Shown here: one piece after another, positions 15,031-37,560 of the stretch
Layout: the number at the start of each line of letters is the position of its first letter
Numbering within the stretch: position 1 is the first letter of the stretch
Origin: an uncultured Chlorobiaceae bacterium
GTDB lineage: Bacteria > Bacteroidota > Chlorobiia > Chlorobiales > Chlorobiaceae
Assembly (NCBI GenBank): GCA_903843305.1
Contig: CAIMPI010000017.1
Span: 1 to 39,688 of the forward strand
Direction of reading: 5' to 3'
Length of the DNA stretch: 39,688 nucleotides
Position numbers and translations under genes: made by a program
Notes under the pieces: generated by a model
The model's database searches: none
What the model saw: the letters and a program-made list of their open reading frames with translations, nothing else
What the model was told of the DNA's origin: nothing

Positions 15031-16311
15031 ATGGAAGAAGAAAAAATACAGAAGAAGTCGATTGCTCGTGAACACACCTTTTTTACAGAGTATGTCAGGG
15101 TATTTCTTCCTTTTTTCTGGAAAAATTTTATTCACGACAGGATTTTTCTCGGCGCCGGTTCTATGGCTTTTCAGACGTTGCTTTCGATTGTGCCTGTTCT
15201 TGCTGTAATTCTCTCAATACTGAATGTTTTTGTGGTTTTCGCACCATTCAAGCGTTCTCTTGAGGATTTTCTTGTTCAGAATTTCATGCCCGGCGTTGGT
15301 TCCGTGCTTAATCACTATTTTTCGGATTTTATAGGTAAAACCACCACTGTTCCGCTGTTGGGAGGAGTTTTTCTGTTTATTATCGCCCTTTCGCTTATTT
15401 CGACGGTCGATCATACCCTTAATGAAATATGGGAGGTGCACTCTCCCCGCAAGGCCCTGCAGGGATTTACCCTTTACTGGACAGTGCTCACGCTTGGGCC
15501 AGTATTGATCGCAAGCAGTCTTGCTGCAAGCTCTTACGTCTGGTACACTGTGTTCACCGAGGGACCTTTGCTTGAAGTAAAAACACGGCTTCTGTCGTAT
15601 TTTCCCTTCATTAATTCGATTCTTGCCTTTTTTCTGCTCTACATGCTTGTGCCTAACCGCAGGGTCAGGTTTGTTCATGCTTTTTCAGGTGCCCTTCTTG
15701 CCGCAATTCTCCTCGAACTATCCAAGAAATGGTTTGCCTTTTATGTAACCCATGTGTCAACGTTTGAGCATATTTACGGGGCGTTGTCGGTTATACCTAT
15801 GCTTTTTTTCTGGATTTATCTCGCATGGGTTGTAGTGCTGACTGGCGCTGAGTTTGTTTTTTGTCTCGGAGCGCTGACACCAGGAAGCCGTGTTGTCGAA
15901 CAGTTCAATCCTTTGCGGGGTGTTCCGGTGATTCTTTCGGTTCTCGGTTCCATCTGGAATGGTCAGAATAATGGCTATCCCATGAATATGAAGAAAATAG
16001 TCAAGTCTGTTTCGTCAGTAAATCCTTCGAGGTTAAGAAAAATTGTTGATATTCTGTTGGAGAACGATTTGATCCATGGTACCGCAAATGGTGATCTTGC
16101 GATCAGTCGTGATCTTTATGTTTTGACACTTTACGATCTCTACATGATAATTCCTCCATGGTTTACCGGAGATGAAAACGGTTTGCTGATTTCAGAGAGT
16201 AAAAACGTACATTTAAGTACAATCAGCAGAGGAGTTGCGGAGTGCCTTAAAAGCAGAATGGATATGCCCCTTGCGACTTTGTTAGATGAGGTTAATCAAC
16301 AGCATTCATGA
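15031..16311 (+). CDS. YihY/UPF0761-family inner-membrane protein
   Basis: A 426-residue protein with six membrane segments in the N-terminal ~290 residues, followed by a soluble C-terminal domain of about 130 residues that looks like a winged-helix ('MKKIVKSVSSVNPSRLRKIVDILLENDLIHG'). The core motifs 'GAGSMAFQTLLSIVPVLAV', 'HVSTFEHIYGALSVIPMLFFWIYLAWVVVLTGAEF' are diagnostic of the YihY/BrkB family. Older 'ribonuclease BN' labels for this family come from a mistaken assignment, and no nuclease residues are visible. The function is unknown; envelope or export roles have been proposed. I prefer ATG 15031, directly after AGAGGGAG, over TTG 15001. The stop overlaps the dnaX start (ATGA, 16308-16311). 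Confidence 0.88.
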   Translation: MEEEKIQKKSIAREHTFFTEYVRVFLPFFWKNFIHDRIFLGAGSMAFQTLLSIVPVLAVILSILNVFVVFAPFKRSLEDFLVQNFMPGVGSVLNHYFSDFIGKTTTVPLLGGVFLFIIALSLISTVDHTLNEIWEVHSPRKALQGFTLYWTVLTLGPVLIASSLAASSYVWYTVFTEGPLLEVKTRLLSYFPFINSILAFFLLYMLVPNRRVRFVHAFSGALLAAILLELSKKWFAFYVTHVSTFEHIYGALSVIPMLFFWIYLAWVVVLTGAEFVFCLGALTPGSRVVEQFNPLRGVPVILSVLGSIWNGQNNGYPMNMKKIVKSVSSVNPSRLRKIVDILLENDLIHGTANGDLAISRDLYVLTLYDLYMIIPPWFTGDENGLLISESKNVHLSTISRGVAECLKSRMDMPLATLLDEVNQQHS

Positions 16312-17504
16312 GTTACCAGGTTATAGCCCGGAAATACAGACCGGCAAAATTTTCTGATATTACTGCACAAGAGCATGTTACCCGTACGATCCAGAATTCG
16401 CTCCGAATGGGGCGGATCGGGCATGGCTATATTTTTTCGGGGTTGCGCGGAGTAGGCAAGACCACTGCGGCAAGAATTTTTGCCAAAGCTCTCAACTGCC
16501 AGAAACTGATGGATGATCCGGATTACTTGCAGCAGGTAACCGAGCCTTGTGGCGAGTGCGAAAGTTGCCGTGACTTCGATTCGGGTACCAGCTTCAACAT
16601 TTCAGAATTCGATGCCGCGTCCAATAATAGTGTTGACGATATACGGGCACTTCGGGAGAACGTCAGGTATGGTCCGCAGAAAGGGAAGTACCGCGTCTAT
16701 ATCATTGATGAGGTGCACATGCTCTCCATTGCTGCCTTCAATGCGTTTTTGAAAACGCTGGAGGAGCCCCCACCTCATGCTATCTTTATTTTTGCAACCA
16801 CAGAACTGCACAAGATTCCGGCTACCATTTCTTCACGCTGTCAACGCTTCAACTTCAAAAGGATTCCACTGGAGGATATCCAGAAGCAGCTTCAGTCGAT
16901 CTGTGATGCCGAACATATTTCTGTTGAGGGAGATGCCCTTCAGCTTATCGGGCGAAAGGCACAGGGTTCAATGCGAGATGCACAGAGTATTCTTGATCAG
17001 GTTATTGCCTTTTCAGCCGAAAATGACCATGAGGGCGCCATCAGTTACCAGGGTGTTGCCGAGCTCCTGAACTACATTGATGACGATACCATGTTCGATG
17101 TTACCGATGCGGTTGCAGCGCAAAACCCGGCAAAGATGCTTGATGTTGCGCAGTTTGTGATCAGGAATGGATATGATGAGCAGGATTTTCTTGAGAAACT
17201 GGTCGAGCATCTGAGAAATTTTCTGGTGGTGCAGAATCTTTCTTCCACCCGACTTGTCGAGCGTCCGGATGCCGTTCGTGACCGCTATCAGCGTGATGCA
17301 GGCAATTTTTCACCATTAGCGGTTATGCAGATGGTCGATTTTATCCTGCAGACGCAGAAAGAGCTGAAGTTCCTGTTTGAGTACCAGTTCCGTTTTGAGC
17401 TTGCACTGCTGAAGCTGATTGATATTGTACACTTGGTTTCTTCAGTGACTCTGCCATCAGCGGTGCCATCGCCTCAAAAAAAAAAGCACCTGACCAATCA
17501 CTGA
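16308..17504 (+). CDS. dnaX: DnaX short form (gamma-like), zero-frame product
   Basis: Zero-frame product of 398 residues containing DnaX domains I-III, the clamp-loader ATPase. Walker A is GLRGVGKT (45-52). The zinc cysteines are C64, C81, C84 and C87. Walker B is 'IIDEVHMLS', sensor I 'FIFATTELHKIPATISSRCQRF', and the domain III helices run to about 375. The frame ends QKKKHLTNH-stop only six codons after a run of ten A. The C-terminal tau-specific domains are thus absent, and the product resembles E. coli gamma. As the unshifted product it should be the default. It can load the clamp but should not bind the polymerase alpha subunit or DnaB, which needs the tau tail. Confidence 0.85.
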   Translation: MSYQVIARKYRPAKFSDITAQEHVTRTIQNSLRMGRIGHGYIFSGLRGVGKTTAARIFAKALNCQKLMDDPDYLQQVTEPCGECESCRDFDSGTSFNISEFDAASNNSVDDIRALRENVRYGPQKGKYRVYIIDEVHMLSIAAFNAFLKTLEEPPPHAIFIFATTELHKIPATISSRCQRFNFKRIPLEDIQKQLQSICDAEHISVEGDALQLIGRKAQGSMRDAQSILDQVIAFSAENDHEGAISYQGVAELLNYIDDDTMFDVTDAVAAQNPAKMLDVAQFVIRNGYDEQDFLEKLVEHLRNFLVVQNLSSTRLVERPDAVRDRYQRDAGNFSPLAVMQMVDFILQTQKELKFLFEYQFRFELALLKLIDIVHLVSSVTLPSAVPSPQKKKHLTNH

Positions 17505-18073
17505 AGGGAACAGAACGGCCGTTAGCGCCTGTTTCTGTCTCAACTCCTTCACCCGAAAAGAAACCGGCAACTTCAGGAGATATTGATCTTGGTTCATGGC
17601 AGAAAAAGCTGTCAAGTTTTGCCTCAAATCCTGCCTCAAAGCCGCTTCGTGTACATCCAGTACCAAAAATTCTCACTTCAGATGACACTGAAGGGCTTGA
17701 AAAAGTTGCGAATCTTGACGTTCTGAAGGTTGAATGGCACCAGTTTCTGGATCATCTGGCCAAGAAAACCCACAACTTTATGGCTACGCATCTTCAGTCC
17801 TGTGAACTGGTCTCATGCAGCCCGTCCGGAGTACTTGAAATTGCCTGTTGCAGAAAGTTTTCCTATGAAGAGCTTGTGCAAGAAAGGGCAACTCTTCAGC
17901 AGGAACTTTCAGAATTTTATGTACTGCCCCTCCAGGTTCGTATTCTCTATGATGCCGAAAAAGATGCTTGTACGAAAGAGAAGACTGTTTTTACCCTTTT
18001 TCAGGAACTTTCACAGAGTAATGAGGTCGTCAGGTTTCTCATAACGGAGTTTGGGGGCGAACTTGTCTACTGA
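16308..18073 (+). CDS. dnaX: DNA polymerase III subunit tau, via -1 shift at A10-G
   Basis: Full-length DnaX is obtained only if the reading frame moves by -1 within A17476-A17485. After the shift the frame continues with Ala-Pro-Asp-Gln from 17486 and stays open to TGA at 18071-18073, giving about 588 residues, a normal tau length. The added ~196 residues are a Ser/Pro/Thr-rich linker (about 80 residues, including 'PSPEKKPATSGDIDLGSWQKK') and a folded domain ('VEWHQFLDHLAKKTHNFMATHLQSC' through 'FGGELVY') that matches the alpha-binding region of tau. No stop codon occurs and the codons look normal, so this is a maintained coding region rather than decay. Either ribosomal slippage at A-AAA-AAG or polymerase slippage adding one A would produce it. 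Confidence 0.8.
17476..17486 (+). promoter_or_regulatory. slippery A10-G site in dnaX (candidate recoding signal)
   Basis: Ten consecutive A (17476-17485) followed by G are read in zero frame as CAA-AAA-AAA-AAG and so contain the heptamer A-AAA-AAG, the same slippery sequence used in E. coli dnaX. A possible 7-bp stem with one G-U pair (17507-17513 with 17529-17535, 15-base loop) starts 21 bases downstream, farther than a usual stimulatory hairpin. I see no upstream Shine-Dalgarno-like stimulator. The run length also suits transcriptional slippage. Confidence 0.7.
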
Positions 18074-21992: not shown

Positions 21993-22038
21993 AAATAGCA
22001 ACAGGTCAAATGATAGGGGATTATTCCACTGAAGTGGA

Positions 22039-22110
22039 GCGGGTGACGAGATTCGAACTCGCGACATTTTGCTTGGGAAGCAAACACTCTACCAACTGAG
22101 TTACACCCGC
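22039..22110 (-). tRNA. tRNA-Gly, anticodon CCC
   Basis: The minus strand folds into a full cloverleaf of 72 bases. The acceptor pairs GCGGGTG with CACCCGC, the D stem is ACTC/GAGT, and the anticodon arm is TTTGC-TTCCCAA-GCAAA. The T arm is GCGAG-TTCGAAT-CTCGT with one G-T pair. The loop places CCC at positions 34-36, reading codon GGG. No CCA is encoded directly after the acceptor. Confidence 0.93.
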
Positions 22111-22121
22111 TTTTCAATGGT

Positions 22122-22194
22122 GGTGAGAGAGGGAGTTGAACCCTCGACCTCAGGGTTATGAATCCTGTGCTCTAACCAACTGAGCTACCTCACC
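22122..22194 (-). tRNA. tRNA-Met, anticodon CAT (elongator type likely)
   Basis: A 73-base cloverleaf on the minus strand. The acceptor pairs GGTGAGG with TCTCACC (last pair G-T), the D arm is GCTC-AGTTGGTTA-GAGC, the anticodon loop is TTCATAA, and the T arm is GAGGG-TTCAACT-CCCTC. The first acceptor pair is G-C, so it is not an initiator tRNA. A CAT tRNA modified to read Ile AUA cannot be fully excluded. The anticodon stem CAGGA/CCCTG has an A-C mismatch at 31-39. It lies 11 bases from the tRNA-Gly gene. Confidence 0.9.
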
Positions 22195-24155: not shown

Positions 24156-27100
24156 TCAGATTGAGGCGGAATGATAGGGTACCTCTTTTTTCAGAGTGAG
24201 ATGCTGACCCGCAATACATGCGAGAGCTTCATCTTCCTCTGCTTCGATCAGGGTTACCACAATATCATTTTTATCGATAGTAATACCATAACGATTATTT
24301 CTGAAACAGACACTCAACGATAGCTTTTTCCATTGAGATGGCAGGTTTGGATGCACATTGAGTTTTTCATTATAGAACGAAATTCCGGCAAAATAACGGA
24401 TAACCGTGTCGAGGGTTCCCGCCATGACACCACAGTGAATACCTTCCTGTGTTGTGCCACCCTGGGTATCATGAATATCGCTTTTAAGTGCCTCGGAAAA
24501 CCACTTCCAGGCCATATCATGGCCATCATACAGATAACTTGATATAATACTGTGAACTACCTTGCTCAAGGTTGAACCATGACTGGTTCTTGGTTCATAA
24601 TAGGCATAATTGTTTCTCACCAGACTGAGCGCATCAGGTACCGCATACCCGATTTTGTGCAGTAGTTCAGCAACCTCTCCGGGTGAGAGTGTATAAAAAG
24701 TCATCAAAACATCAGGTTGTTTGGCAACCTTGTACATATCGGGAGAATCATCCTCAGCTTTAAGGATTCTGTCCATGCGATGAATATTGCCGTACATGGT
24801 GCGGTAGTGTTTCCAGTCAAGCTCCTTCAGGCTTTTGTAGCCTTCGAATTGCTCGATAATGCCCTCATTATCAATCAGAATATTCATGTGGAGACTTATA
24901 TTTCTCCACTGCAGAAGTTCCTCAGAGTTGAGCTTGATTTTTGACATCAGGCGCTTGAGGACAACAGGGTCAATCTTATCTCCGATTTCAGCAGCCTTGT
25001 CAAACAGCCAGACTGCCATGATATTTGTGTAGGCATTATCTTTCAGTCCTTCCTTTCCACTTCCCGGAAGTGTTTCATGAAATTCGTCAGGGCCCATCAC
25101 ACCCTCGATGTGATACTTGTTTGTGTCAGGAGAAAACGTGGCGATCGAAGCCCAAAACCTGGCAATTTCAAACATCAGTTCAGCTCCATACTCGTTCAGG
25201 AACTTGGCGTCGTCAGTGTCATAGATATAGCGCCACACATTATAGAAAACTGCTATCGAAACGTGCCGTTGCAAACGACTGAGATCAGGTCCCCAGGTAC
25301 CACTCTTCGGATTGAAGTGGATGACTTGTGTATCCTCACGGCCATCATCTGCGGTCTGCCAGGGGAACATGGCGCCCTTGTAACCGTTTTCACGAGCATA
25401 CTCCCTGGCCGCATCAAGCCTGCGATAGCGGTACATCAGCAATGCCTTTGAAATTTCAGGGAAGAGACGGTTGAAAAATGGCAGGATAAAAATTTCATCC
25501 CAGAAGATGTGTCCACGGTAAGCTTCACCGTTCAAACCACGAGCTGGCATTCCTGCGTCAATGGATGGATTGTGAGGCGATGCCGTGCACATCATGTGAT
25601 AGGTGTGCAGTCTGAGCAATTTTTGGCTGAATCGGTCGCCTTCAACAAGCATATCGCCTTTTTTCCATATTTTTTCCCATGCTTCAGCATGTTTCCTGAA
25701 CAGCGAGTCAAAAGAGTCCTCGCTTTCAAGTGAAAGTCTGGCCGCCTTTACCGGATTGCTGCACTTCGGGTCAAGTGATGTGTGGATGGATGCAAGCTTT
25801 TCAATGGTACAGCTTTTATTCGGACTCAATGACAGTGAAAACAATTCACCGATATAGCGATTATCGCTTATGGTTGCGCGCTCAATAACAACAGGTTTTC
25901 CATGACTTAAAATTCTTGTCCTGGTTCCCGTTACAATATCGTAATGCGACACATTGGTTCGTACATGCAAAAGAATAATCTGCTCTTCGCTGAAGCCCTC
26001 CACATGTTCCAGATGATCGCTTGTGAGCCCACTGTAACGCGCAACATTTTTGTTTTGTATCCGGCCGTCTATTCCAGATCGGAACTCGACTTCTGCACTG
26101 TAATTGACTGGCTTGAGCGTGAACTTCAATGCGCAGCGATGTGGGTCGTCCATACTTGCAAACCTGCTGCTGCTGATGCTCGTTATTCGTCCGAGATTGT
26201 CCTGAATTACGATTTCCCGCTCCATAAGGCCATTGCGCAGGTTCAGGTTCTGGCGGTAGCTGAGTATTTTCTGCTCAAATGGATCAATAAACATTCCTCC
26301 ACCAATCCTGAACTCTACGGGAAGCCAGTTCGGAGTATTGACAAAGTCATTATTGAAAACGGTCTGGCCGTGAACCTCCGAGGGCACTCGGTTGAAAACT
26401 CCGGCAATATAGGTGCCGGGATAGTGGTGCTGAGAACTGGAAAAACCTTCATAAGAACCTCTTACGCCAAGATATCCGTTGCCGGAGGATGTCAGTGTTT
26501 CGCGAACTTTTTCCTCTTTTGCAGAAAAATCGGTATAAGTCAAATTCCATCCCTCATAATCAATGCCTTTACTGAACCACTCTTCAATCTCTTTAATCGT
26601 GATTTCCCCGAGGTCACTGACAACAATATCAGCACCCTGTTCCCTCAGTTTTGATCCTTCGATGTCACGGGCAATCCCGAGCACCATACCGAAATTACCA
26701 CGGAAACCTGCCTGAACTCCGGAAATAGCATCCTCAACAACCACGCATTCGTGAGGTTCCAATCCGAGGTTTCTGGCTGCCATAATAAAAATATCGGGAT
26801 TTGGCTTTCCCTTCAGCCCAAGCTCAATAGAAACTTCGCCGTCAACACGGGTCTCAAAAAGATGTTCAAGATGGGCAAGCTTCAGAATCAGCTTGCAGTT
26901 ACAACTTGATGAAGCGATTCCAATCCTGATTCCTTTTGCTATAAGTTCATTGATGAGATCGACCGATGAGGTATATACCTCAGGGCCTTCCTTGATCAGG
27001 ATTTCAGTAAAGAGGCTGTTTTTGCGGTTTCCCAGACCGCACACGGTCTCTTGTTCCGGAATATCGTCCAGTTCTCCAAAGGGTAATTCAATATCTCTCG

Positions 27101-27320
27101 ACAAAAGAAAGCTTTTGACACCTTCCATGCGCGGTTTCCCGTCTACATACTTGTGGTAGTCATGAGCAGGGTCAAATGGAACGTAAGGTTCGTTGTTGTT
27201 TTCTGCATAATTTTTGAGAAAGGAATTAAACATTGACTCCCAGGCCAGGCTGTGTACTTTTGCTGTGCCGGTGATGACGCCGTCGAGATCGAATATTGCT
27301 CCTTTAAAAATGTTGCTCAT
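24156..27320 (-). CDS. beta-phosphoglucomutase / GH65 disaccharide phosphorylase fusion
   Basis: A 1054-residue two-domain enzyme. Residues 1-245 are a HAD-family beta-phosphoglucomutase-like domain: nucleophile D11 and acid/base D13 in 'IFDLDGVI', '[10 protein letters not shown]', and '[12 protein letters not shown]'. Residues 255-1040 are a glycoside hydrolase family 65 phosphorylase, with the N-terminal beta-sandwich, then the (alpha/alpha)6 barrel. The catalytic acid is E746 in '[10 protein letters not shown]'; phosphate-binding segments are 'RTSHGSTLS' and '[16 protein letters not shown]'. Family 65 cleaves an alpha-glucoside with phosphate to glucose and beta-glucose-1-phosphate, which the mutase turns into glucose-6-phosphate. 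Linking both in one chain suggests direct hand-over. The disaccharide (trehalose, maltose, kojibiose or other) cannot be read safely. The HAD gene lies 37 bases upstream. Confidence 0.93.
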
Positions 27321-27357: not shown

Positions 27358-28620
27358 TTACAGAGAGAGTAGTCCAAGAATGGTCAGAAGAATGTCCGGG
27401 TAAGGAACCGTATAGCTGTTCGGGCAAATTTCTTTAACCTGTTTTTTAAGATTCTCATCCCTTGTTACAAAAACTGCCCAGACGTCTTCACACATTTCCA
27501 TAGCCTTTTTCAGCATAGGAATGTCCGAAGGGGTATCGCCGCACACAAGAGTAGAGCCTTCCGAGCCATTTATGCCCAGTTTGTTGTAGATAAAAGAGAG
27601 TCCGTCACCTTTGTCAAAATCCTTGATTGGAGAGTCTTTTGATGCGCTATCAATGGTTAAAATAATTTCAATATCAAGACCGGTATCTTCAATTCTGAAA
27701 TTTCTGCCGCTCGGGTCTATTTCCTGGACAACGTCTTTAACCTTTTCAAGAAAAGCAACAGATTCGTCATCTCTGATGGAGTTTGTGATATCCTGACGGG
27801 CAACTGTTGTCTGGCCAAATTTTATCTGGAGTGCAGAGCCGATAAAGTTAAATTTCTCAAAATCCTGTTCCTGGAGAAGTACCAGTATTCTTTCGTTTAA
27901 AAGCTGAATCAATTTCTGTTTTTGTTCATCAATGGGAAAGCTGTTGAACTCGCCATTGATATCGATAAACTCCCTTCCTTTGGAACCTGCGTAAATGAAG
28001 GTGTGGCTCGGATTGATTGACACGTTCAGAATGCCGAAATCTTTCAGTGGTGCCGAGGTAATGATAATGGGATGATTACAGCAGTTCCTGGCAAAACGGG
28101 TGAGAAATACCGAATTGTAGATAGGTTGCACTGATGAACGATAGCGGCCGCAGTAGTTGTTCGTTGTTCCGTCACGATCAGTGATAAAAGCGTTAAAATG
28201 TTTTCCCTGAAGTGAGATAACACCTTTATTGACATAGGCGCGAAAATCGGGAATGAATTTTGCCAAATAATCGATGAACTTGTCCTCACCGTATTCAAGG
28301 TAGTAGATGTCTTTCTGGAGTTCACGGATTTCATAAGTGAGATCTACCTCAATCTGTTTCATTCCATCAAGGCGCAGCAGACGTTGCCCTGTATCATCAT
28401 CAATGTAAATGGTTTCCAGTGAGTAGAGAGCGTTTTTAAGCGATTCTACACACGATTGCCCCACAACCCTCTGTTTGATGATGTTTTTGACCACCGGTTC
28501 TCTAAGCTCACGTGTTTCTGCCTTCAGTTGATAGAGTTCTTTCAGGGTACGAATATCCTGTAACGTGATCGAATTCGGGGATGTGTTCAGGTTGCGTTCT
28601 TTAAGAATACTCTCGTGCAT
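27358..28620 (-). CDS. HAD phosphatase, trehalose-6-phosphate phosphatase-like
   Basis: A 420-residue protein. Residues 1-140 are mostly helical and match nothing I recognise. A HAD phosphatase domain follows: nucleophile D148 and acid D150 in '[16 protein letters not shown]', motif II 'IIITSAPL', Lys337 in 'DKGDG', and motif IV '[12 protein letters not shown]' with D362 and D366. The motif IV spacing and 'DKGDGLSFI' resemble trehalose-6-phosphate and sucrose-phosphate phosphatases (cap type C2B). Its position directly before the GH65/mutase fusion suggests a sugar-phosphate substrate. No trehalose-phosphate synthase is in the window. It is therefore a sugar phosphatase of unproven specificity. 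A 133-base AT-rich gap precedes it and may hold the promoter of the pair. Confidence 0.75.
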
Positions 28621-32619: not shown

Positions 32620-33867
32620 ATGAAATTTCTCCATACCTCCGACTGGCATTTGGGCAAAACCCTTTATGGCAGAAACCGTTACACTGAGTTTTCCGCTTTT
32701 CTGGAGTGGCTTGCCGAGCTGATTGAAAAGGAAGAGGTCGATGCCCTTCTTGTTGCCGGTGATGTCTTCGACACCTCAGTTCCGGGCACCCGTGCACAGG
32801 AACTTTACTACCGGTTTCTCCACAAGGTTGCCCGTTCCACGCTCTGCCGCCATGTCGTGATTACCTCAGGAAACCATGATTCCGCTTCATTTCTCGATGC
32901 TCCCAAAGCGCTTTTGCAGGTTCTTGATGTGCATGTGATTGGCTCGGTGAGTGACAGGCCTGTTGACGAGGTGGTAGCGCTTCGCGACAGCCGGGGATGT
33001 TTGGAAGCCGTAGTCTGCGCCGTACCGCATCTGCGTGACCGCGACATCCGAAGCGTTGAGGCAGGGGAGAGTATGGACGACAAGAACCGCAAGCTGCTTG
33101 AAGGGATAGAGCGACATTACCGGGAGGTCTGCCAGGCAGGAGAGATGCTGCGGCAGCAGGAGAATAGTGTAGCGCCAATGATAGCGATGGGTCATCTTTT
33201 CACGGCTGGAGGCACTACGGTTGATGGCGATGGGGTGCGCGAAATCTATGTTGGCTCGCTTGCCCATGTGAGTCGTTCGATTTTTCCGGCAGGGATCGAC
33301 TATCTTGCCCTCGGTCATCTGCATGTTCCGCAGAGGGTGGGAGGCGAGGAGCATCTGCGCTACAGCGGTTCGCCACTTCCGATGGGGTTCGGTGAGGCAC
33401 TCCAGCAGAAACAGGTAGTGCTTGTCGAGTTTGCGGATAATGAGCGGAGAATCAGTGAAATGGCTGTGCCCTCGTTTCAACATCTTGTACGAATCAGCGG
33501 AGATATCGAAGCCATTACTTCGCGTATTTTAAGGCTCAAGGCAGAAGGAAGCAGTGCCTGGCTCGAAATCGAATACTCCGGCAGTGATCTGCCTGGTAAT
33601 CTGAGGGAGCCGTTTGATGAGGCTGTGAGTGGTTCCATGCTCGAAATCCGCAGAATTAAAAATAACCGCATGGCGGCTCTTGTCCTGCAGCAGCTTGCAG
33701 AGCATGAATCACTCGATGAACTTAGTGAACTTGATGTCTTCCATCGCTGTCTCAATGCAGGGAAGGTTTCTGAAGATCAGCGACCAGCACTTGTGCAGGC
33801 CTATCAGGAGATACTGGTTTCGCTTCACGATGATGAAGAACCGCCTGGAGACGAGAACCACTCCTGA
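32620..33867 (+). CDS. sbcD: nuclease SbcCD subunit D
   Basis: A 415-residue Mre11-type nuclease that, with SbcC, cuts hairpins and blocked DNA ends. The metal-binding motifs of the calcineurin-like phosphoesterase fold are D8-W-H10, GDVFD (47-51), GNHD (84-87), 'MGHLF' and 'LGHLHVPQ'. A capping domain follows at about 270-405. It ends with acidic 'DDEEPPGDENHS', probably flexible. The ATG has AAGGT in good position. The next gene is sbcC after 30 bases, and the two subunits should be made together. Confidence 0.96.
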   Translation: MKFLHTSDWHLGKTLYGRNRYTEFSAFLEWLAELIEKEEVDALLVAGDVFDTSVPGTRAQELYYRFLHKVARSTLCRHVVITSGNHDSASFLDAPKALLQVLDVHVIGSVSDRPVDEVVALRDSRGCLEAVVCAVPHLRDRDIRSVEAGESMDDKNRKLLEGIERHYREVCQAGEMLRQQENSVAPMIAMGHLFTAGGTTVDGDGVREIYVGSLAHVSRSIFPAGIDYLALGHLHVPQRVGGEEHLRYSGSPLPMGFGEALQQKQVVLVEFADNERRISEMAVPSFQHLVRISGDIEAITSRILRLKAEGSSAWLEIEYSGSDLPGNLREPFDEAVSGSMLEIRRIKNNRMAALVLQQLAEHESLDELSELDVFHRCLNAGKVSEDQRPALVQAYQEILVSLHDDEEPPGDENHS

Positions 33868-33897
33868 ATGCTATTTTTTATTGAGTAAAGTCACGTC

Positions 33898-36800
33898 ATG
33901 AAAATTATTTCGCTGCGATTCAAAAACCTGAACTCTCTTGCCGGAGAGTGGCATATCGATTTTACCGCTCCAGAATATGTTATGGACGGCATATTTGCTA
34001 TTACCGGACCGACCGGTTCAGGAAAAAGCACTATTCTTGATGCGCTTTCGCTTGCCCTCTACGGCCAGACACCGCGTCTCGGCAGGATAACAAAGAGCAG
34101 CAATGAAATCATGTCGCGTCAAACCGGGGAGTGTTTTTCTGAAGTGGTTTTTGAAACTCTCACGGGCAGATACCGTTGCCACTGGTCGCAGCATCGATCG
34201 CGGCGGCAATCCGGAGGAGAGTTACAAACTCAGAAGCATGAGATTGCTGAGGATGCATCCGGCAAAATTATCGAATCGAAACTGCAGGATACCCTTGCCG
34301 CAGTGGTGACACGAACGGGAATGGATTTCCAGCAGTTCACCCGATCCATGCTGCTGGCCCAGGGAGGATTTGCAGCTTTTCTTCAGGCTCCTTCCGACGA
34401 ACGGGCACCCGTGCTTGAACAGATCACTGGAACAGAGATTTACTCGGTCATCTCCATGAGAGTGCATGAGCGCAACCGTTTTGAGCAGCAGAAGCTGAAA
34501 GCACTCAGGGAAGAGTGCACCGGTATCCAGTTGCTTGATGATGAGAGGCTTGCGGCAACAGATAAGGAACTGCAGGCAAGGCTGAATGAAGAGTCCGACA
34601 TCATCAGCAGACAGAACAAAGCGGAAACAGCGCTCCGTTGGCTCAAGCAGATTGCTGCCATGAAGGGCGAGCTTGAAGGTATGGAAGAAAGTTTCCGCGA
34701 GCTGAGAATCTATGAGGATCGTTTCATTCCTGATCGTCGAAGGATGGAGCAGGCTCGCCTGGCAGCAGCATTTGAACCCGCATACACGACTCTTCACCAT
34801 CTGCAGGAGCTTCAAAAAAGTGAGCTGCAGGAAAAAACTATTTTGGAGAGTACCCTGGAGGATGCCAAAACAGCTCTTGCGGAGCGTACAGAGGCATTCA
34901 GCGAAGCGGTGCAAAGGCAGCAGAACTTGAAAGTAGAGGAGAAAAAACTTTCGGTGGTTGTTCGGGAAGTGAGGGCGCTGGACTTGCAGATATCCGTGAA
35001 GCAGGAGCAGTGCCGAGAGCAGGAAGAGGCAATAACGCTTCTTTGTGATCAAATAGCATCATTGGAGAAGCTGATTGGCAGCATTGAGGGTGAGATGCAG
35101 CAGGAGAGAAAAAAGATTGACGAATCGGCTGCATATCTTGACCAGCATGAAGCCGACAACACTCTCCTCTCTTCGATGAGCGGTATTGAAGCCGCAGTGC
35201 GGCAGCAGCATGAAGCGCAAGAGGAGGAATGTACGACCAGAACGACGCTGGAACAGAGGCGAAAAGAGCTTGGAGAGGCAGAAGCGCTTCTCCAGAAGTT
35301 GCAACCGGAAACAGCAGAAGCCCGTGCGGCTCTTGATGCATCCCATACCCGTCGGGAGGAGCTTACGGGAGAACTGGCGTCCCTGCTTGCAGGAGTGGAT
35401 ATTTCGCAACTGCGCCGAGAGTCCGAAAGCCTGCATGAGCGCATGAGAGCACTGGAAACCCTTGCTGCAAGAGTTGCCGCTGCAGGTGAAATCGGGGAGC
35501 GTATCTCTTTATTAAAACAAGCTCTTGCGGATAGTGATGCCCGCCACTCCCGAACTGTTGAAGAGATTGAGAGACACACTCAGCTTCAGCAGAAAGAGGT
35601 GCAGATTGTCGAGGGGCTTGAACGGCAGGCAGAGCTGCTGTCTAAAATCCTCTCGCTTGACGAAGAGCGGAGGCTGCTGCAGGACGGCTCTCCCTGCCCC
35701 CTCTGCGGATCGGTTAACCATCCCTGGGCTGAAGAAAGCCCGGAAATGGTCGTTGAAGGTGATGAACTCCGTCTTTCCAAAGTGTCGCTGCAGGAGACTA
35801 CCGACAAGATCACTGCGTTGCGTGTTGAAGCGGCCAAAACCTCAAACGATCGGGAACACCATGAGAGGCAGATCATCGCTGAAGAGAAAGCCCTGGCGGG
35901 AGAACGTGCTGCATGGAATAATCTTGCAGCAGAGCTTGGGATTGCCGGAGAACTGAACCATGAACGAGCAGTTGCAATCTTTCTGGCGATCCGGAGTCAG
36001 GCTGCAGAGCGTGCAGAAGCGCTTGCCGGTGCGGAGCAGCTTGAAACACGCCAGAAGCTTGCTGAGAGAGAAGAGCAGCAATTGCGTCAGCAACTAACGG
36101 ATGCGGTACAACGTGAGGAAGCGGCAGTTTACAGCAAGAAAACTTCCGAACTTGAGGTCAGGAGGGGAAAAGAATCACTCGGAAAAAGCAGTGATCGGCG
36201 AACGACTCTCCAGGAGAGCCTCAACAGGCAACTTGCAGGGTACGGCATCACTTCTGAAAAAGAGACCTCTTATCGTAATGCGCTGCTTGTGCTGCACACT
36301 CGCGCTGAAGAGTGGCAGCGTGCTATCGACCGTAAAACGGCGGCGTTCCGCCAGATTGGCGCTCTTGAAGGCAACCTCAAGGCTCAGAAGGAGTTACTGT
36401 TGACGAGAACGCACGACCATGGTGAAAGGGTAAGGCAGCATGTTGCCGGAAAAACGACATGCACCCTGCTTCAGGAGCAGCGGCAGGAACTCTTTGGAGA
36501 AAAAAATCCTGATAAGACAGAAGAGATACTTGCAGAGAGATTAAAAATCGGTGAAGCTTCTCTTGAACTTGCCCGAAGCAGTCGTGATGCATCATCGCAG
36601 CAGATCGGTGAACTTTCGGCACGTATTGGCATGCTTGCCACCTCATCAGCCGGAAGGGCTCTTGATATAGCAGAGACACACTCTCTGCTCATCCAGGAAC
36701 TCGCTCGTGTCGGGTTCGAGAGCATTGAATGCTTTATTGCCGCACGGCTGGAGCGCCATGTGCAGGAAAAGCTTGAAGAGCGGGCACAGAAGCTTGCGGC

Positions 36801-37560
36801 ACGTCGGCTTGAGCTTGAAACCCTGCAGAGCGAACGCAAGAGCAAGCTCATGCACGAGGAGAAGATGGCACTTACCGAGGAATCTCCCCAAGCGTTACAG
36901 GATGAGCTCGAAAGGCTCTCTGTCAGCTTCAGCGCTGTGCGTTCCGATATTGAAGCACTGAAACACCAGCTCTTCGAGCACGAAAAGGCTGCCGCTCTTT
37001 TGCGTGAAAAAACAGCCGCTCTTGCTGTTCAGCAAATTGAAGGCTCACGGTGGGCAACCCTCTACGAGCTTATCGGGTCTGCCGACGGTAAGAAATATCG
37101 CAATTTTGCCCAGGGGCTTACCTTCGACATTATGATTGGTCATGCCAATCGTCAACTGGTAAACATGAGCGATCGTTATCTCCTTGTACGCTCGGCAGAT
37201 CATCCTCTCGGTCTCAATGTTATCGATAACTATCAGGCGGGGGAGGTGCGCTCCACTCTCAATCTTTCGGGAGGAGAGAGCTTCATCGTCAGTCTTGCAC
37301 TTGCCCTGGGCCTGTCGCAGATGTCGAGCCGGAACGTCCGTGTTGACTCACTCTTTCTTGACGAAGGTTTCGGAACCCTTGATGAAGATGCCCTTGATAC
37401 TGCTCTGCAGACCCTCGCAGCGCTTCAACAGAACGGCAAGATTATCGGAATTATCTCTCACGTTCCGGCGCTCAAAGAACGGATCAGCACACAGATCAGA
37501 GTCCATCCCATCTCTGGAGGCCGCAGCCGCCTGTCGGGGCCTGCGGTAAGTGAAATTTGA
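33898..37560 (+). CDS. sbcC: nuclease SbcCD subunit C, Rad50-like ATPase
   Basis: A 1220-residue SMC-type ATPase that controls SbcD. The head halves are at both ends: Walker A GPTGSGKST (about 38-46) and Q-loop region 'MDFQQFTRSMLLAQGGFAAFL', then C-terminal signature 'NLSGGESFIVSLALALGLSQ' and Walker B 'DSLFLDEGFGTLDEDAL'. Two long coiled-coil arms (about 190-590 and 615-1060) meet at the zinc hook C600-P-L-C603, almost exactly in mid-protein, flanked by 'DGSP' and 'GSVNHPW'. The size is above E. coli SbcC (about 1050) owing to longer arms. Dense Glu/Ala/Leu/Arg content is typical. Confidence 0.96.
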   Translation: MKIISLRFKNLNSLAGEWHIDFTAPEYVMDGIFAITGPTGSGKSTILDALSLALYGQTPRLGRITKSSNEIMSRQTGECFSEVVFETLTGRYRCHWSQHRSRRQSGGELQTQKHEIAEDASGKIIESKLQDTLAAVVTRTGMDFQQFTRSMLLAQGGFAAFLQAPSDERAPVLEQITGTEIYSVISMRVHERNRFEQQKLKALREECTGIQLLDDERLAATDKELQARLNEESDIISRQNKAETALRWLKQIAAMKGELEGMEESFRELRIYEDRFIPDRRRMEQARLAAAFEPAYTTLHHLQELQKSELQEKTILESTLEDAKTALAERTEAFSEAVQRQQNLKVEEKKLSVVVREVRALDLQISVKQEQCREQEEAITLLCDQIASLEKLIGSIEGEMQQERKKIDESAAYLDQHEADNTLLSSMSGIEAAVRQQHEAQEEECTTRTTLEQRRKELGEAEALLQKLQPETAEARAALDASHTRREELTGELASLLAGVDISQLRRESESLHERMRALETLAARVAAAGEIGERISLLKQALADSDARHSRTVEEIERHTQLQQKEVQIVEGLERQAELLSKILSLDEERRLLQDGSPCPLCGSVNHPWAEESPEMVVEGDELRLSKVSLQETTDKITALRVEAAKTSNDREHHERQIIAEEKALAGERAAWNNLAAELGIAGELNHERAVAIFLAIRSQAAERAEALAGAEQLETRQKLAEREEQQLRQQLTDAVQREEAAVYSKKTSELEVRRGKESLGKSSDRRTTLQESLNRQLAGYGITSEKETSYRNALLVLHTRAEEWQRAIDRKTAAFRQIGALEGNLKAQKELLLTRTHDHGERVRQHVAGKTTCTLLQEQRQELFGEKNPDKTEEILAERLKIGEASLELARSSRDASSQQIGELSARIGMLATSSAGRALDIAETHSLLIQELARVGFESIECFIAARLERHVQEKLEERAQKLAARRLELETLQSERKSKLMHEEKMALTEESPQALQDELERLSVSFSAVRSDIEALKHQLFEHEKAAALLREKTAALAVQQIEGSRWATLYELIGSADGKKYRNFAQGLTFDIMIGHANRQLVNMSDRYLLVRSADHPLGLNVIDNYQAGEVRSTLNLSGGESFIVSLALALGLSQMSSRNVRVDSLFLDEGFGTLDEDALDTALQTLAALQQNGKIIGIISHVPALKERISTQIRVHPISGGRSRLSGPAVSEI

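Follow-up and report, generated by a model that had tools for sequence, protein, structure and literature searches.

The dnaX gene of an uncultured Chlorobiaceae bacterium, located in the 39,688-nucleotide stretch of DNA analysed here (the window), raises the question of how gamma and tau can both be made when the tau C-terminal part lies in the -1 frame relative to gamma and the two parts meet at a pure run of ten A. A first-pass annotation had proposed programmed recoding, in which the zero frame gives gamma and the -1 frame gives tau, and this proposal is supported by the conservation of the run and of the frame relation across the class. In our reading, the single dnaX probably yields both proteins by RNA polymerase slippage, i.e. 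programmed transcriptional realignment, on the A10 tract, as comparative sequence analysis would suggest.

The two reading frames of dnaX

Read from the ATG at 16308, the zero frame ends with CAA AAA AAA AAG CAC CTG ACC AAT CAC TGA, which confirms the uninterrupted A10 followed by G (17476-17486), its division into codons and the zero-frame stop as initially described. Across the run the tau frame reads TCA AAA AAA AAA GCA, and it remains open from the run to the TGA at 18071-18073; the end point of 18073 given before is the last base of this stop. With the exception of the tau frame, every frame leaving the run closes within about 20 nt (Table 1). The immediate closure of the third frame had been absent from the first-pass annotation.

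Table 1. Features of the dnaX locus in the window
Feature	Positions	Strand	Remarks
dnaX, both frames together	16308-18073	+	From reading of the run and the frames
dnaX zero-frame ORF, gamma, 398 aa	16308-17504	+	AAA+ ATPase, lid and domain III; QKKKHLTNH precedes the TGA
A10 slippage tract (putative), followed by G at 17486	17476-17485	+	Uninterrupted run
TGA ending the third (+1) frame	17491-17493	+	5 nt past the run
TGA ending the zero frame (gamma end)	17502-17504	+	16 nt past the run
-1-frame continuation, linker plus tau C-terminal part	17486-18073	+	195 codons and stop

The gamma encoded in the zero frame is complete; it contains the Pfam domains PF13177, PF22608 and PF12169 and matches NCBIfam PRK14955, the gamma-length DnaX of 397 aa, at 2e-249. 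The product of the -1 frame matches residues 429-620 of PRK14954, a single-ORF DnaX of 620 aa, at 1e-65, in agreement with the tau C-terminal domain noticed earlier in this frame; the same part had no Pfam match. For the window its dN/dS is about 0.12-0.25 against near relatives; between close relatives it is about 0.1-0.3, while that of gamma is about 0.01-0.06. Because these values are low between close relatives, the -1-frame part was counted as real, and as judged from substitution rates the tau C-terminus is under purifying selection, which bears out the initial impression that the downstream frame shows no decay. The possibility that tau comes from elsewhere, either from another complete dnaX or from a separate tau gene, was rejected, since the search of the 99.9% complete genome found neither a second dnaX nor any other tau C-terminus. 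At its start, the gene overlaps the stop of an upstream ORF for a YihY/BrkB-family membrane protein (ATGA at 16308-16311), which suggests translational coupling, and aspS is found downstream.

The A run and its flanking stops among relatives

As the first-pass annotation had suggested, the dnaX genes of relatives were aligned. A class-wide search returned 90 genomes with a match above threshold, from which 88 junctions were read, one per species and the window included; the isolate Chlorobium ferrooxidans DSM 13031 is among them, while neither C. phaeobacteroides (A7) nor C. chlorochromatii (A8) could be identified in this set. An uninterrupted run of at least nine A is present at all 88 junctions (A10 in 79, A9 in 8 and A11 in 1), and tau is encoded in the -1 frame in 73 genes and in the zero frame in the other 15, so that no gene of the class has it in the +1 frame.

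The idea that the window simply contains a miscounted run, with a true A11 (or A8) and tau as one ORF, or that the gene is a pseudogene, has to be considered because homopolymers are error-prone; the run lengths of L015 (A11), L061 (A9) and L064 (A9) could indeed be assembly miscounts of this kind. However, the reversed relation occurs in 73/88 species, including several single-contig genomes and the Chlorobium isolate, and the tau part is under selection, which makes such an error barely credible for the gene described here. Neither a mistaken A11 or A8 nor a lone exception, which had been named as the outcomes that would speak against recoding, emerged from the 88 class junctions. Equally hard to believe is the proposal that the -1-frame part is a small protein with its own start that is not fused to gamma. 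A TTG-started ORF of 104 aa exists at 17730-18044, though in a different frame, and a search for a start codon of the tau frame itself found none: some genes have no ATG in this frame, in the others the position of the first one ranges between codons 24 and 134, and none is conserved. Furthermore, tau is a single ORF in 15 relatives, and NCBIfam PRK14954 represents a fusion.

The run itself, to judge from its homologues, is kept far beyond chance, because nine or more A are found in all 88 of them despite the fact that CAA is rare, accounting for 8% of the Gln codons in the genus of the window, and AAA accounts for 45% of the Lys codons (3% and 12%, respectively, in a second genus). GAA makes up 37% and 26% of the Glu codons in these two genera, and all phase-1 genomes begin the run with one of the two codons CAA and GAA. 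On the tree of 78 Chlorobiaceae, which comprises 12.6 substitutions per site, columns 1-9 of the run show 0 parsimony changes, compared with 15.7 changes per gamma third codon position and 7-27 changes in nearly all of the 24 upstream flanking columns; the run length changed 3 times. The RNA:DNA hybrid of RNA polymerase measures 9-10 bp (PMC5009743). Retention of the full run and of CAA or GAA at its beginning is expected for polymerase slippage, whereas it is not explained by a ribosomal shift that needs the last six A and the G. The G after the run (17486) is invariant in 78/78 Chlorobiaceae, regardless of the phase in which the run is read, and polymerase slippage alone has no obvious need of it. 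The length of the tau part varies between about 195 and 233 codons after the run, with a difference of about 30 codons or more between L053, L054 and L055 and, on the other side, L001; the run and the adjoining stops are kept despite these differences.

In 97% of the genes, neither of the non-tau frames stays open for more than 25 nt past the run, compared with 4% of random positions. In all 63 Chlorobiaceae of the reversed type the third frame meets a stop no more than 8 nt past the run, where 13% would be expected; these third-frame stops lie at three different distances and use two stop codons. This conservation counts for polymerase slippage, because slippage by +2 or -1 enters the third frame, which a ribosomal -1 shift out of the zero frame never does.

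Slippage by the polymerase or by the ribosome

Under transcriptional slippage, transcripts with exactly 10 A (or 10+3n) would be translated into gamma, ending 16 nt past the run, while transcripts with 11 A (or 8 or 14) would bring the tau C-terminus into frame. Transcripts with 9 or 12 A would meet the third-frame stop 5 nt past the run and give another gamma-length protein. That the slippage takes place at transcription is inferred, as are its efficiency and the gamma:tau ratio. The first-pass annotation had left both ribosomal and transcriptional slippage open, and of the two the transcriptional variant fits better.

The main competing explanation is programmed -1 ribosomal frameshifting at A_AAA_AAG within the run, a mechanism known from E. 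coli dnaX, where the two products are the other way round. Several observations agree with it and at the same time count against transcriptional slippage: the zero frame CAA AAA AAA AAG presents the heptamer in the correct phase, as do most of the genes (61 reversed genes and 9 with zero-frame tau share the phase of the window), tau is never in the +1 frame among the 88 class genes, which is also predicted by -1 frameshifting, and the G after the run does not vary in the Chlorobiaceae. Moreover, the literature names a candidate in C. phaeobacteroides, which has A7 and stimulators resembling those of E. coli. However, the run comprises A10 where only A6G is needed, CAA is retained where CAG would suffice, the third-frame stop is conserved and several genes have the weaker A_AAA_AAA phase.

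Stimulatory signals of the kind used by E. coli were likewise not apparent. When windows of 60 and 41 nt downstream of the run were folded, no excess of structure appeared, with mean z-scores near 0 in every group, although this test is weak, because E. coli dnaX itself reaches only z = -1.7. For the interval +6 to +46, the class has a median MFE of -6.3 and a lowest value of -13.5 kcal/mol and the dnaX of the window reaches -4.7 kcal/mol, compared with -19.1 kcal/mol for the stem-loop of E. coli K-12 dnaX in the same interval. Shine-Dalgarno-like matches were no commoner near the run than in the rest of gamma. In addition, the genome of the window encodes both tRNA-Lys UUU and tRNA-Lys CUU, and the CUU-type anticodon-arm pattern was found in 69/74 near-complete class genomes. 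The latter tRNA is a dedicated reader of AAG and should hence lessen slipping at this codon; such a tRNA may be the reason why Thermus uses RNA polymerase slippage (PMC5009743). Taken with the features of the run and its stops, these findings make a ribosomal shift an unlikely explanation for the window, though the strongest of the competing ones.

Polymerase slippage would also be favoured by one gene from outside the class. Another 40 dnaX genes were taken from the Bacteroidota, with a deliberate excess of short zero frames; among these, A9-A11 runs recur at the junction in both layouts and other genes have no run. In L274 (G164:C2:28200-31237), which belongs to the same phylum, TAG comes immediately after the A10 and the tau part occupies the +1 frame, the only such layout seen; its tau would need A9 or A12 transcripts, which a -1 ribosomal shift cannot serve. 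At least one lineage may nevertheless be using the ribosome, given the A8 of Chlorobium chlorochromatii and the A7 plus stimulators of C. phaeobacteroides in the literature (PMC3711429, PMC5009743).

Frame switches and comparison with known systems

The description of the recoding as reversed applies to the layout of the window, but not to a fixed type of gene, since relatives switch repeatedly between it and a layout like that of E. coli and Thermus with the same run. On the tree of gamma DNA (88 rows), 11 layout switches were counted, 9 of them forced by well-supported branches. The three run-length singletons mentioned above account for 3 switches, and 8 are left when these are discounted. 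These 8 come from indels that leave the A10 intact, just before the run in L039, L047, L055 and the L060/L062 pair, and just after it in L065 and its group, L068, L069 and L078; both layouts persist in clades. If the polymerase slips on the run, unslipped and +1 transcripts would both be produced in large numbers and it would matter little which product is in frame in the genome. Because both populations would be large, indels beside the run could flip the reversed layout, in which tau needs slippage, into the Thermus-like one, in which gamma needs it, and vice versa, while the run and the stops are kept.

It might be that in green sulfur bacteria the frame relation of dnaX is effectively free to drift, that unslipped and +1 transcripts arise from A10 slippage in similar amounts, that selection acts only on the run and the stops on its two sides, and that 8 or more flips of the genomic frame have occurred with neither protein lost; we regard the chances for and against this wider reading as evenly balanced. 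The slippage assumed here must be directional, with unslipped and +1-A transcripts both abundant, because the +1 tau layout is absent from the class. The chance that 8-11 switches would all avoid this layout is roughly 0.004 to 0.0005 by our own estimate, assuming symmetric indels and equal chances. A full scrambling of the frames, with one third of the transcripts in each, was set aside in favour of a strong bias to 0 and +1 A in view of the 0/88 class genes with +1 tau, although the outgroup gene L274 has this layout.

The switches could also be taken as a sign of phase variation, in which DNA replication slippage in A10 toggles cells or strains between tau-on and tau-off. A-runs are mutable, and A9 and A11 singletons as well as 11 frame switches were recorded. 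Yet tau is expected to be necessary in every replicating cell, the run length is nearly constant with 3 changes on the tree, 8 switches stem from indels outside the run and both layouts persist in clades, which makes phase variation very improbable.

The reversed layout itself is already known, and the gene described here adds another example. Antonov et al. (2013) described the two-ORF dnaX as a novel structural type with 17 genes from 12 genera in the GeneTack dnaX cluster, with A10 in 9/17 and A7-A9 in the others and with Chlorobium and Chloroherpeton (A9) included, and inferred transcriptional realignment (PMC3711429). The layout was repeated by Atkins et al. (2016), who mention, from unpublished work, that C. 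phaeobacteroides may be a case with stimulators like those of E. coli (PMC5009743). The present gene, whose zero frame encodes gamma and whose tau depends on a -1 transition at poly-A, is no different from those of Antonov et al. (2013); what differs is that 88 class members were compared and the flips mapped. No later experimental paper was found in the literature searched. As far as could be found, the present comparison adds the number of flips, the test of the third-frame stop and the finding that the run is invariant throughout the class.

Thermus thermophilus dnaX, which uses transcriptional slippage on A9, has in common with this gene the long pure A-run at the gamma/tau junction, near stops in both non-tau frames and two tRNA-Lys, whereas its tau is in the zero frame and here the slipped transcript would be needed for tau. 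The dnaX of Escherichia coli, in which the ribosome shifts by -1 at A_AAA_AAG, shares the heptamer in phase and the two products from one gene, but here the products are reversed, the run is longer than needed, neither stem-loop nor Shine-Dalgarno enrichment is seen and two tRNA-Lys are present. Slippage also restores the frame for a longer product in Shigella mxiE and in IS elements, although mxiE is an unrelated gene that slips on a U-run (PMC1088944) and the IS elements are likewise unrelated.

A recoding layout earlier known from few genomes is thus confirmed by comparison, and its mechanism is made testable: the A-run, the third-frame stop and the repeated flips are predicted by transcriptional slippage and not required by a -1 ribosomal shift. 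The case is also one of an essential gene whose frame in the genome appears nearly neutral. Furthermore, in most green sulfur bacteria, gene callers that work frame by frame would cut dnaX short and report only gamma.

Apart from dnaX, the window contains a 1054-aa ORF (24156-27320) with a beta-phosphoglucomutase-like HAD domain and a family 65 glycosyl hydrolase, which looks like a bifunctional disaccharide phosphorylase/mutase. It is adjoined on the minus strand by a 420-aa ORF (27358-28620) with no NCBIfam match at 1e-5. The exonuclease genes sbcD and sbcC are arranged in tandem at 32620-37560, and tRNA-Gly(CCC) and tRNA-Met(CAT) lie side by side on the minus strand at 22035-22194.
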